Position numbers and translations under genes: made by a program | In this document: in pieces, positions 5,845 through 17,103 of the stretch | How positions within the stretch are numbered: position 1 is the first letter of the stretch | Layout of the letters: every line of letters begins with the position of its first letter | Assembly: GCA_025359865.1 (NCBI GenBank) | Contig: JANYDH010000056.1 | Span: forward strand, 1 to 35,090 | Direction of reading: 5' to 3' | DNA length: 35,090 nucleotides | DNA from: Actinomycetes bacterium | GTDB taxonomy: Bacteria > Actinomycetota > Acidimicrobiia > Acidimicrobiales > Ilumatobacteraceae | Notes under the pieces: generated by a model | What the model was told of the DNA's origin: nothing | What the model saw: the letters and a program-made list of their open reading frames with translations, nothing else | Databases searched by the model: none

Positions 5845-6168
5845 TCAGTCGCCGTCGGCGAGTGTTGCCGGGATGTCGCGACGGGTATGGAGCACGCGCC
5901 AAATGTCGATTCGATCCTCGGTTCGAACGTAGAAGATCACGTACGGGAACCGCTTCACTCGTACGGCTCGGAGTTCCGGGATGCCAAGTTCGAAAGCGAA
6001 GCGCAGCGACCCCGCGTTCAGTGAACGCGGGGTCTGGTTGATCCCACGCTCCACGGCGTCGATGAGGGCCAACGCGGCCGTGTCGCCGGCGCTGCTGCGA
6101 AGGTACGCAATGGCCTCGTCAAGATCGGATGCTGCGCATCGGCGCAGTTGCGGCCGCTGTTGGGACAC
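5845..6168 (-). CDS. ParE/RelE-superfamily toxin
   Basis: This 107-residue protein has DLDEAIAYLRSSAGDTAALALIDAVERGINQ (the helical hairpin) and then LRAVRVKRFPYVIFYVRTEDRIDIWRVLHTRRDIPATL, the beta-sheet with conserved FPYVIFY and the C-terminal H-x-RRD of ParE toxins. ParE members poison DNA gyrase. It starts eight bases after the antitoxin stop, in antitoxin-first order. The gene appears complete. A role in stabilising the former mobile element is inferred. Confidence 0.85.
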   Translation of the reverse strand: MSQQRPQLRRCAASDLDEAIAYLRSSAGDTAALALIDAVERGINQTPRSLNAGSLRFAFELGIPELRAVRVKRFPYVIFYVRTEDRIDIWRVLHTRRDIPATLADGD

Positions 6169-6749: not shown

Positions 6750-7478
6750 TTGCGGGATGGCACGCTGTGCAGCCGCTGGTACCTGGTGACCGATCTGCCG
6801 TTGATTGGTCGCGGACGTACAGCCGACGTGTTCGACGCAGGCAACGGCCGCGTCCTGCGTCGGTATCGCAGCGCACGTGCCGACTCCGTTGAGCGTGAGG
6901 CGCTCGCAATGCGACACCTGCGTGAGCACGGCGCGCCCGTGCCTGAGGTGTTCTCGGCGGCCGGAACCGACATTGTGATGGAGCGACTCGAAGGCCCGAC
7001 GATGCTCGAGGTCTTGAAGACCACGCCGTGGCGTGCCGCGTCGATCGGCCGACAGCTCAACGCAATCCACACCCGTGTCCATTCGATCGTGGCCGGCGAC
7101 ATCGATCTCCCGAGGTTCAGCGACGGTGACGCGATACTGCACCTCGACCTGCATCCTGACAACGTGATCATCACACCCGACGGTCCGATGATCATCGACT
7201 GGAGCAACGTTGCACTTGGCGACCCATTGGCGGACGTGATGAACACGTGGATGCTGATGGTCACGAGTTCGCCAGATTCGGTACCGCTTATGTTGAGGCC
7301 CGTCATACGTCGGATCAGACGATCGCTTTCCGACGGCTTCATCGATGGCACCACGATCGACGACCACGCTCGTCGGTGGATCGGGCGCGTGTGCGATCAG
7401 CGGCTCCTCGATCCGAACGCTCGTGACGATGAGAAGGCGCGTGTGCTCGATTTCGCCGCGTGCCACACCAACCGATAG
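6750..7478 (+). CDS. APH-fold phosphotransferase (protein-kinase-like)
   Basis: The product has a glycine-rich start LIGRGRTADVFDAGNGRVLRRYR, hinge VMERLEGPTM, catalytic loop HLDLHPDNVII (D133, N138) and metal motif MIIDWSNVALGDP (D150), giving an APH/choline-kinase-type fold. The expected ATP lysine in the VLK strand reads Arg. The substrate is unknown; relatives include aminoglycoside, homoserine and fructosamine kinases. TTG 6750 is preceded by GAGG at 5-base spacing. GTG 6786, which begins VTDLPLIGRGRTADVF, fits family alignment equally well. The gene looks intact and is preceded by decayed DNA. Confidence 0.75.
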   Translation: MRDGTLCSRWYLVTDLPLIGRGRTADVFDAGNGRVLRRYRSARADSVEREALAMRHLREHGAPVPEVFSAAGTDIVMERLEGPTMLEVLKTTPWRAASIGRQLNAIHTRVHSIVAGDIDLPRFSDGDAILHLDLHPDNVIITPDGPMIIDWSNVALGDPLADVMNTWMLMVTSSPDSVPLMLRPVIRRIRRSLSDGFIDGTTIDDHARRWIGRVCDQRLLDPNARDDEKARVLDFAACHTNR

Positions 7479-7838: not shown

Positions 7839-8369
7839 ATGGACATCAACGCGCTTGCGGCGCTCTCGCTGACCGATAGTTCGGGAATGCCGCACCAACT
7901 TGGGGATCTCTGGCTCGATCAGTCCGTTGTGATGGTGTTCCTTCGCCACTTCGGTTGACTGCACTGCCGAGAGCACGCCGCGCAGTTGCGCGACAACAAC
8001 GACGAGATTGCCGAACTCGGTGGACGAGTCGTCGCCATCGGTACCGGTGACCAACGTTACGCCGCCGCCTTTGTCGATGAGGAGCGAGTTCCGTTCCTCG
8101 TGCTCGTTGACGATGATGCTGCCGCAGCGAGTGCAGCCTCCGTGCGAACGCTCTCGTGGTTTGAGCTGCTTCATCCGCGCACATGGAAGGCGACCAGAGC
8201 GACCTCCAAGCGGGGGCATCACGTCCACAAGCCCGGAACGCGAGTCAAGCAGGTCGGTGCCACATTCGTAATCGGTGCCGGCGGCAGGGTTCGCTACGAA
8301 CACCTCGATGCCGATAGCACCGATCACGCCGACGTCGACGACATCCTCGACGCGTTACGCCGGATTTGA
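7839..8369 (+). CDS. PRXL2/SelU-type peroxiredoxin-like protein with in-frame TGA at the redox site
   Basis: Reading from ATG 7839 through TGA 7956-7958 gives one 176-residue AhpC-TSA_2 (PRXL2/selenoprotein U-like) protein. Before the TGA it reads VVMVFLRHFG; after it comes LHCREHAAQLRDNNDEIAELG, then VVAIGTGDQRYAAAFVDEERVPFLVLVD and VGATFVIGAGGRVRYEHLDAD. The family motif is FLRxFGCxxCREHAAQL, so the TGA (codon 40) replaces exactly the first Cys of CxxC and gives UxxC. A 5-bp hairpin (7979-7983 with 7988-7992, loop AGTT) starts 21 bases downstream. The rest of the frame is intact. It is either a selenoprotein or a gene killed by one TGC-to-TGA change; decayed neighbours favour neither decisively. 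Confidence 0.7.
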
Positions 8370-8419: not shown

Positions 8420-9319
8420 TCAGCAGTGGCTCACCACATCAGCGGCGAATTGCTCGATCGATGGCCGGAATATCTCGGCCGAACGGTTCAGGCCGGTCAT
8501 GTCGCCCTTCGACACGTTCTGATCGAGCGCCCACGGCATGCACAGAGTTGCGGTGAGACCCAGTTCTTCCTCTGCTCGCTTGAACAGCTCAGGAGTCGGC
8601 ATCGCATACAACCCGCAGACGATCTCGAACGGATCATCGTCACGCCCGAACTCGTGCAGATACTCCTTCAGCTTAGCAACGTACACCGCCGCCTCTTCGA
8701 CTGGGTAGGCGTTGCCGATCCAGCCATCGCCTACCTGTGCGGCGCGACGCAGTGCTGCATCGGTGTGGCCGCCGATGTAGATCGGAATCGGTGCCTCGGG
8801 AGTCGGCTCCATCATGCACGCCGGCACGTCGTAGAAATCACCATGGAACTCGACCCAGCCCGGCTTCCACATCTCGCGCAGCGCGTGCACCATCTCGGTG
8901 AACCGGCGGCCACGGTTGGTGAAGCTCTGACCCTGCAGGTCGAACTCTTCGCGCATCCAACCCGCTCCGGCACCCAGTGCCACCCGTCCGGCCGAGATGA
9001 TCGACGCGGTCGAGACCTCCTTGGCCACCTGGAGCAGCGGACGCATCGGCGCCACGTAGATGTTGGTCGTGAACTGGAGTTTGGTGGTAACCGCCGCCAT
9101 CGCCCCGATCAGCACCCAGGGATCGGGCCATGCAGTCTCGGGCGCCCACATCGGACGGCCATCGGCGTGCGGTGAGTAGGGATACTTGCTCGTCAGGTGC
9201 TGCGGATAGACGAGATGATCGGACACCATCAGGCCGTGATAGCCGCATGTATCGAGCATCTGGGACACGGCGATCAACTCGCGAGTGTCCATGAACGCGG
9301 TGGCGCACCAGAACTTCAT
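8420..9319 (-). CDS. LLM-class F420-dependent oxidoreductase
   Basis: This 299-residue protein has the luciferase-like TIM-barrel pattern: DHLVYP near residue 35, KLQFTTNIYVAPMRPLLQVAKEVST, SAGRVALGAGAGWMREEFDLQG (cofactor-binding segment) and PIPIYIGGHTDAALRRAAQVGDGW. Actinobacterial relatives use F420 rather than FMN. Length is normal. ATG 9319 has AGGA about seven bases upstream. It is transcribed divergently from the steroid side-chain operon and shares its control region, so it may act in the same pathway; the substrate is unknown. It converges with the peroxiredoxin-like gene, leaving a 50-base gap. Confidence 0.85.
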   Translation of the reverse strand: MKFWCATAFMDTRELIAVSQMLDTCGYHGLMVSDHLVYPQHLTSKYPYSPHADGRPMWAPETAWPDPWVLIGAMAAVTTKLQFTTNIYVAPMRPLLQVAKEVSTASIISAGRVALGAGAGWMREEFDLQGQSFTNRGRRFTEMVHALREMWKPGWVEFHGDFYDVPACMMEPTPEAPIPIYIGGHTDAALRRAAQVGDGWIGNAYPVEEAAVYVAKLKEYLHEFGRDDDPFEIVCGLYAMPTPELFKRAEEELGLTATLCMPWALDQNVSKGDMTGLNRSAEIFRPSIEQFAADVVSHC

Positions 9320-9592: not shown

Positions 9593-10789
9593 ATGCACAT
9601 CGGCGACTCGCCAGAAGAGGCAGAGTTTCGAGCTACTGCGAATGCATGGTTGGGCCAGCACGCGTCACCTCGACCGTCGACACAGACCTCGCACTACGAC
9701 GATCTCAGCGACCACGTTCGAGAGTGCCGCGAGTGGCAACGAACGCTGCACGATCACGGTTGGGCCGGTATCGCCTGGCCGAAGGTATTCGGAGGATGTG
9801 GAGGCTCACCAATCGAGTCGGCGATCTTCAACGAGGAGCAGGCCCGATTCGCCGCTGCCACCGGTGCGTTCGCTGTTGCGATTGGCATGGCCGGCCCGAC
9901 GTTGATGGCTCATGGCACCACCGAGCAGCAACGTGAATTGCTACCCGCCATGCTGCGCGGCGACCACGTGTGGTGCCAACTTTTTTCCGAGCCCGGTGCC
10001 GGCAGCGACCTCGCCTCGCTCGCCACCCGCGCGGTCCGTGACGGCGACGAGTGGGTGGTCACAGGACAGAAGGTGTGGACCTCGCTCGGGCAGTTCGCCG
10101 ACCACGCGATCCTGCTCGCCCGCACCGATCCCGACGTGCCCAAGCATCGCGGCATCACCTACTTTCTGCTCGACATGCGCTCACCGGGCATCGACGTGCG
10201 ACCATTGCGTCAGATCACCGGCACGGCCCATTTCAACGAGGTGTTCCTGACAGATGTGCGCATCCCACACAGCAACGTCGTCGGTGAGGTCGGAAATGGT
10301 TGGAAGGTGGCCCAGACCACGCTCACATCAGAACGCGCATTCATCGGTGGCGGTGGCGGCGCGTGGAGCGTCGACGGACTCATCGCTCTCGCGCAATCCA
10401 ACGGCGCAATTCATGATCTACCGACCCGGCAGGCGCTCATGCGTGCACACTCGCGTGCGGCCACGCTCACCTATCTTGGATACCGGCTACGGACAGCGTT
10501 CTCGCACAAACGGATGCCCGGTGCCGAGATGTTCATCATGAAGCTCGCGTATGCGCGCCACTGGGCCGCCACGGTCGACACGGCCATGGCAGTGCTCGGC
10601 GCCAGCGGGATGCTCACCGACGGCGAGGCAAAAGGGTGGGGGCAGTACCATCTCAGTCAGTTCGCGATCCGCCTCGGCGGCGGCACCGACGAGGTGCAGG
10701 CCAATATCATCGGCGAGCAAGCCCTTGGCTTGCCCCGCGAGCCAAGCATTGATCGAGACACCCCGTGGAAGGACCTGGTGCGGTCATGA
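9593..10789 (+). CDS. Acyl-CoA dehydrogenase, ChsE2/FadE29-like subunit
   Basis: This 398-residue acyl-CoA dehydrogenase has the FAD/substrate segments WCQLFSEPGAGSDLASL (residues 127-143) and WVVTGQKVWTS (154-164). Catalytic Glu247 sits in LTSERAFIGG, the position used by FadE29. The usual C-terminal YEGT glutamate is replaced by LGGGT, also as in FadE29. In mycobacteria ChsE1-ChsE2 is a heterotetramer that desaturates the 3-carbon steroid side-chain CoA ester. This is the first gene of a six-gene run, and its TGA overlaps the next ATG. Substrate is inferred from the operon. Confidence 0.85.
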   Translation: MHIGDSPEEAEFRATANAWLGQHASPRPSTQTSHYDDLSDHVRECREWQRTLHDHGWAGIAWPKVFGGCGGSPIESAIFNEEQARFAAATGAFAVAIGMAGPTLMAHGTTEQQRELLPAMLRGDHVWCQLFSEPGAGSDLASLATRAVRDGDEWVVTGQKVWTSLGQFADHAILLARTDPDVPKHRGITYFLLDMRSPGIDVRPLRQITGTAHFNEVFLTDVRIPHSNVVGEVGNGWKVAQTTLTSERAFIGGGGGAWSVDGLIALAQSNGAIHDLPTRQALMRAHSRAATLTYLGYRLRTAFSHKRMPGAEMFIMKLAYARHWAATVDTAMAVLGASGMLTDGEAKGWGQYHLSQFAIRLGGGTDEVQANIIGEQALGLPREPSIDRDTPWKDLVRS

Positions 10790-16042: not shown

Positions 16043-16141
16043 ACCGACCAACCGTTCAACTTGGATCTGCACTCCGTCCAACGGTACAGATACACCGACA
16101 TGCTACGAATGAGCGACAACATCACACCCGGAGGTTCCACC

Positions 16142-17103
16142 GTGTCGAACAAGCCCTTCCGCTTCTCCATCCAGGCATCGACCGCAGTAAGCGGCGCAGC
16201 GTGGCGCGAATTGGCCCACAAAGCAGAAGACCTTGGCTACTCGACGCTCCATGTGTCTGACCACTACGTCGACGCAGCCTCGAACGGCGGGCAGTGCCTG
16301 GCCGCTGTACCGGCAATGGCCGTAGCCGCTGCAGTCACCACCACCTTGCGCGTCGGAGCACGCGTGATGTGCATCGACTACCACCACCCGGCCGTACTGG
16401 CCAAGGAAATGGCCACACTCGACCTGCTCTGCGACGGCCGGCTCGAACTCGGTCTCGGAGCGGGCTGGGTGAAGAGCGAGTACGAGGCGATGGGCCTCAC
16501 CATGGATGATGCACCCACTCGAATTGCCCGCCTGGCCGAGACCGTCGAGTTCATGAAGGCCTTCTTTACGGGCGATCCACTCGACGTGGACGGCGCAAAC
16601 GTCACAGCAAAGGGATTCAAGGGCGAACCGCGGCCGGTACAGCAGCCGCACCCGCCGATCATCATCGGCGGCGGGGCGCGGCGCGGCGCGTACTCACCTA
16701 CGCCGGAAGCGCTGCAAACATCGTCAGCTTCAACTTCAACAACCGTGCAGGTTTCGTCGGTCCCGATGGTGTGCGGTCGTCGTCGGCTGCAGCGATGGAC
16801 GACAAGATCGGTTGGGTCCGCGAGGGTGCCGGCGATCGCTTCAACGAGATCGAACTCGAAGTCGGCGCGTACTTCACCGTCATCACCGATGACCCGAGCA
16901 CCGTCGCCGCAAAGATGGGCGGCATGTTCGGCCTGTCGGGCGACGAGATGGCCGAGCATCCCAATGCACTCATCGGTTCGATTGAGCAGATCTGCGACAT
17001 GCTCCTCGCCCGTCGGGAACGTTACGGGTTCAGTTATGTGAGCGTGTCGGACCGCAACGCCGATGCGTTTGCGCCGGTAGTCGCCCGCCTTGCAGGCCGC
17101 TAG
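16142..17103 (+). pseudogene. LLM-class F420-dependent oxidoreductase, frameshifted
   Basis: GTG 16142 has GGAGG seven bases upstream. The first frame encodes an LLM barrel (FRFSIQASTAVSG, LHVSDHY, LELGLGAGWVKSEYEAMGL, PPIIIGGGARR). The second frame resumes with LTYAGSAANIVSFNF and ends GFSYVSVSDRNADAFAPVV at TAG 17101-17103. The two frames join if five bases are removed from the GGCGC tandem run at about 16675-16690, so a 5-bp duplication caused the shift. Both halves are otherwise well preserved. Intact, it would be an approximately 319-residue F420-type enzyme, possibly serving the same catabolic block. Assembly or base-calling error is a real alternative. Confidence 0.75.

Follow-up and report, generated by a model that had tools for sequence, protein, structure and literature searches.

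SelL proper has a UxxU motif. Among peroxiredoxin-like (Prx-like) selenoproteins, a family with UXXC in place of TXXU was described in 2005 (available text of PMC1088965), Prx-like proteins 1-3 with UxxC appear in the list given in part of PMC2398784, and the available parts of PMC9312934 and PMC13188914 describe a Prx-like thiol:disulfide oxidoreductase with UxxC or UxxU as well as an AhpC/TSA form with UxxS. UxxC Prx-like selenoproteins are already known, and the gene analysed here adds another member to them. Within one limited collection of papers, no literature naming the NCBIfam family NF040769 (SelL-related redox protein) or the term "SelL-related" was found.

The gene is located at 7839-8369 of the window, i.e. 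the whole stretch of DNA that was analysed (35,090 nucleotides). As judged by comparison with its homologues, it very probably (about 93%) encodes a SelL-related, peroxiredoxin-like selenoprotein, in which the UGA at 7956-7958 would be read as selenocysteine (Sec) by means of SECIS and SelB. This reading is based on a UGA conserved where the family has its redox Cys, on the sel machinery in the genome, on a covarying stem with fixed loop codons and on coding conservation past the UGA. The initial annotation had called the gene a candidate selenoprotein, which the sel machinery, the conserved TGA, the covarying stem and the fixed loop codons all support.

Reading frame, protein family and fold

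The reading frame starts with the ATG at 7839 and runs to its own stop codon, the TGA at 8367-8369, over 176 residues, and translation confirms the earlier claim that it is broken only by the TGA at residue 40, in the context RHFG-U-LHC-REHAAQLR (Table 1). A gene finder that takes this TGA for a stop would shorten the gene, e.g. to a 127-residue ORF at 7986-8369, and the public annotation of the relatives is likely to be wrong. Only Arg-36, residue 40, Cys-43 and Asp-91 are invariant among 42 aligned homologues.

Table 1. Positions in the window of the candidate selenoprotein gene, its predicted elements and the neighbouring ORFs
Feature	Position	Strand	Details
Predicted selenoprotein gene	7839..8369	+	176 residues, putative Sec at residue 40; open save one TGA; Pfam/NCBIfam matches
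In-frame TGA of residue 40, probable selenocysteine codon (U of UxxC)	7956..7958	+	TGA at the aligned codon in 53/58 homologues
Codon of partner Cys-43 (C of UxxC)	7965..7967	+	Invariant in 42 aligned homologues; position counted on the sequence
Predicted bacterial SECIS hairpin	7979..7992	+	Stem 7979-7983 CGCGC / 7988-7992 GCGCG, loop AGUU (AGTT) 7984-7987
Gln-Leu codons CAG-TTG, predicted to form SECIS loop and closing pair	7983..7988	+	Codon choice across homologues
APH-family ORF	6750-7478		Open frame, Pfam match
Luciferase-like ORF	8420-9319		Open frame, Pfam match
Acyl-CoA dehydrogenase ORF	9593-10789		Open frame, Pfam match

The surroundings of the gene had been described as decayed, but the three neighbouring ORFs that were tested contradict this, all of them being open frames with Pfam matches (Table 1). 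A BLAST comparison of flanking ORFs, limited for most loci to about 1.5 kb or less on either side, found among its 25 largest groups no neighbour gene common to eight close loci, and thus provides no operon clue. Elsewhere in the window, a small ORF on the minus strand (5845-6168) matches Pfam ParE_toxin with 45.5 bits, and a luciferase-like monooxygenase gene at 16103-17103 is apparently split into two frames with a break near 16.65-16.7 kb, a Pfam match being present in the first part only; the break appears to be a frameshift or an assembly error.

The window protein matches the Pfam families AhpC-TSA_2, AhpC-TSA (PF00578) and Redoxin, and its score for AhpC-TSA_2 (PF13911) of 53.6 bits, against a gathering cut-off of 27, places it in that family. 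With Sec entered as Cys, the match to NF040769 spans residues 8-172 of the 176 (E 1.1e-33), but the score of 116.3 bits lies below the curated cut-off of 120; we therefore call the predicted protein SelL-related by resemblance and do not file it as a full member of NF040769 by the curated rule. All 42 homologues scanned match NF040769 at E <= 1e-5, and all of them match AhpC-TSA_2 at the threshold used. The sequence of the human prostamide/prostaglandin F (PGF) synthase is matched weakly (phmmer E 0.0049), with its FGCVVC aligned with FG-U-LHC, and its structure (9us9_A) is a fold match over 101 columns with 24% identity. Given that this synthase is presumably PRXL2B, the SelU/PRXL2-like label proposed initially retains a distant link to PRXL2, while the nearest curated family is NF040769 and not SelU itself.

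The AlphaFold2 model of the window protein resembles Bcp/PrxQ peroxiredoxins, which come first among the fold matches, the human prostamide/PGF synthase and ResA. Whether the predicted selenoprotein acts mainly as a thiol-disulfide oxidoreductase of the ResA/TlpA type, and not as a peroxidase, is a question to which we would give slightly less than even odds of a positive answer: the CxxC of PGF synthase aligns with the UxxC, and ResA chains are found among both the sequence and the fold matches, but the top rank among the fold matches belongs to peroxiredoxins of the Bcp/PrxQ type. This ranking does not decide the function, because the model was built from two sequences and has a mean pLDDT of 74, with residues 105-133 (as well as 154-160) under 50.

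Conservation of the TGA codon and the selenocysteine machinery

Among the 397 genomes searched within the same order (including the one that contains the window), 97 gave matches. Exactly one TGA is present in each of the best 23 rows, and in the best eight, comprising the window gene and seven others, it is found at the same residue; these seven closest relatives exhibit 47-60% identity to the window protein over the full length. Many of the lower rows have no TGA, and most of them cover the N-terminal half only. The phylum was searched with a profile (A1) of nine close sequences against 396 genomes at E <= 1e-20, which matched 28 genomes, with one TGA in 25 of the 29 rows and none in four. 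After two duplicates were dropped, the codon at the Sec site is TGA in 53 of 58 loci and TGC or TGT in the other five; these Cys forms agree with the earlier placement of the TGA at the redox Cys of the family. The closest relatives have TGA as well, so the situation envisaged by the initial annotation as contrary evidence, in which they would show TGC and this strain alone a stop, is not what was found. Downstream of the TGA, 10 pairs of homologues remain 44-62% identical over 133-136 codons, with dN of 0.30-0.52 versus dS of 0.99-1.88, where dS is near saturation and only the direction of the difference counts.

The A1 profile found no relative in a scan of viral contigs and one, L048, in a scan of genome contigs. 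This copy, 61% identical, is carried by a 3366-base contig (VGTG01000302.1) titled as a Deltaproteobacteria MAG, and is a case of horizontal transfer or misbinning. At another locus (G421:C130:56122-57215), two genes of the family (L052 and L079) are neighbours, each with one TGA and with CAG-TTG.

The genome from which the window comes (4.99 Mb in 219 contigs, 96.6% complete) encodes selA (399.8 bits, cut-off 267.9), an adjoining selB (281.6 bits, cut-off 242.25), whose ORF overlaps that of selA, selD (309.8 bits, cut-off 125) and tRNA-Sec (64.7 bits, cut-off 47), identified by ARAGORN as tRNA-SeC with the anticodon TCA (UCA). All four score above their cut-offs and are located on contigs other than that of the window, and the absence of sel genes that had been considered as possible counter-evidence was not observed. 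The two matches to tRNA-Sec are identical, lie at the ends of two contigs and agree in their flanks, and so probably represent one gene.

Co-occurrence with selA was assessed in 50 chosen genomes of the order. Of the 29 genomes with a fetched TGA homologue, 27 gave a match, that in G172 being split into two pieces which score below the cut-off; of the other 21, 10 did. A tRNA-Sec is found in G018 as well as in G063, the two TGA genomes of the order that gave no selA match, and this points to gaps in the draft assemblies. Among the TGA genomes of the phylum, selA was matched in 21 of 23, in two of them below the cut-off, and no match was obtained in G464 and G563. A tRNA-Sec match is present in seven of eight close TGA genomes, the search of G047 giving none, and in none of the six genomes given as negatives. 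Four homologues in the phylum (L054, L072, L075 and L076) are Cys forms of the family, and selA is matched in three of their four genomes; the loss of Sec in this family is therefore not always tied to the loss of the machinery. A telling pair from the same genus comprises G538, which has TGA, CAG-TTG and selA, and G518, which has TGC, CAG-CTG and no selA match; it offers a natural comparison for studying the benefit of selenium to the enzyme.

The predicted SECIS hairpin and codon choice in its loop

The limits given for bacterial SECIS (bSECIS) elements in the available part of PMC13188914 are a loop of 3-9 nt with G in one of its first two positions, a stem of 4-16 bp, a spacing of 16-37 nt and a minimum free energy of at most -7.5 kcal/mol. 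A scripted scan recovered the hairpin of the window gene at the position noticed initially, with 25 nt between the TGA and the loop (the distance of 26 given earlier includes the first loop base). Its 5-bp stem, its loop of 4 nt with G at position 2 and its offset all conform to these rules, as had been claimed, and its energy of -7.5 kcal/mol is exactly at the published limit, which puts it within the bSECIS definition. However, when the same loose rules are applied to control codons from 20 ORFs of the window, 581 of 7395 (7.9%) are followed by a hairpin of -7.5 kcal/mol or better, as are 7 of the 71 Cys codons of these ORFs, in line with the caution expressed at the outset that GC-rich DNA easily makes such stems; the window hairpin by itself is therefore not significant, and we rejected it as a single proof of a selenoprotein. 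The Rfam model SECIS_1 matches nothing in the genome, but it is also silent in all 14 control genomes and hence uninformative, and the three matches in an Rfam scan of 7900-8100 each fall under the gathering score of the respective family.

The case for a SECIS is made instead by covariation and codon choice across the predicted homologous genes, and not by the window hairpin alone. In a gap-free alignment of 32 TGA genes with CAG-TTG, 94.2% of the cells of a seven-pair stem are paired, a value not reached in any of 500 shuffles, whereas shifting the stem model by 1 to 3 columns lowers the paired share to 14-58%. Both sides are altered in five of the seven pairs (reached in 10/500 shuffles), there are 24 double-changed cells against a shuffled mean of 7.8 (0/500 shuffles with as many), the covariation score is 0.374 against 0.158 +/- 0.021 (0/500), and the observed value for pair types is reached in 1/500.

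The Gln-Leu of the loop is spelled CAG-TTG in all 31 TGA genes that have Gln-Leu there, and CAG-CTG in both Cys homologues that have it; elsewhere in these homologous genes TTG accounts for 45 of 551 Leu codons, and in the ORFs of the window for 113 of 729. An AGUU hairpin of -7.5 kcal/mol or better is formed in 26 of the 31 CAG-TTG genes, while L024 and L065 reach only -5.6 kcal/mol and a simple scan found no hairpin in L029, L032 and L059. The same energy is attained by 10 of the remaining 22 TGA homologues and by none of the five Cys homologues. The CAG-TTG signature combined with the covarying hairpin provides a simple marker for such genes.

Several TGA homologues of the HRHLxULPC type have stems of 7-8 bp around CGUGC. 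The genome of the window itself contains a second Prx-like gene (L080:1434-2015, on G000:C13) with one in-frame TGA at L080 1614 in the context HRHLAULPCQEH; the TGA is followed by GTGATCGC-CGTGC-GCGATCAT, a good SECIS candidate, and the product is 27% identical to the window protein.

These comparisons also bear on two readings without a selenoprotein. That the gene is decaying, with the TGA a nonsense mutation of what was once a CxxC cysteine, would be in keeping with the TGC and TGT of the Cys forms, one or two base changes away from TGA. However, 53 of 58 loci share this one TGA, the frame is intact past it, the genome has the sel genes and the hairpin covaries, and we rejected such a pseudogene as very improbable. 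General readthrough or reassignment of UGA, which would place Cys, Trp or some other amino acid at residue 40 with no SECIS, has only the frame open on either side of the TGA in its favour and was rejected as hardly credible, since TGA serves as a stop, at the end of this gene and of many relatives, and fixed CAG-TTG codons with a covarying stem would not be expected.

Proposed mechanism and comparison with known systems

If the gene encodes a selenoprotein, as we consider very probable, the hairpin, with its loop 25 nt past the UGA, would recruit SelB with Sec-tRNA(Sec), and we infer that Sec is actually inserted at residue 40. The product would be an oxidoreductase of the thioredoxin fold, SelL-related and peroxiredoxin-like, with UxxC as its active site. 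Its selenolate would most likely attack a peroxide or disulfide substrate, Cys-43 would resolve the intermediate as a Sec-Cys selenylsulfide, and a cellular thiol system may then reduce the latter, a redox cycle and choice of substrate that we propose for the UxxC protein.

More tentatively, at somewhat worse than even odds, Sec may be the standing state in this clade of SelL-related proteins and Cys the derived one, with the SECIS loop fixing Gln-Leu and the uncommon TTG, and with a concerted reversion of Sec site, loop codon and hairpin on loss of the Sec machinery. Such joint reversion is suggested by the pair of G538 and G518; on the other hand, selA is present in three other Cys genomes.

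As compared with the described systems, the window protein differs from SelL proper in having UxxC where the latter has UxxU. The human prostamide/PGF synthase (9us9) resembles it in fold and has a CxxC that aligns with the UxxC, but is distant and has Cys in place of Sec. With the UxxC selenoproteins of the Prx-like type listed in marine and bacterial surveys, compared by description only (available text of PMC1088965, PMC2398784, PMC9312934 and PMC13188914), it has both UxxC and PF00578 in common. The PF13911/cd02970 AhpC/TSA selenoprotein, as far as described in the available text, likewise has the AhpC-TSA_2 domain, but there the motif is UxxS, whereas the window protein has UxxC.
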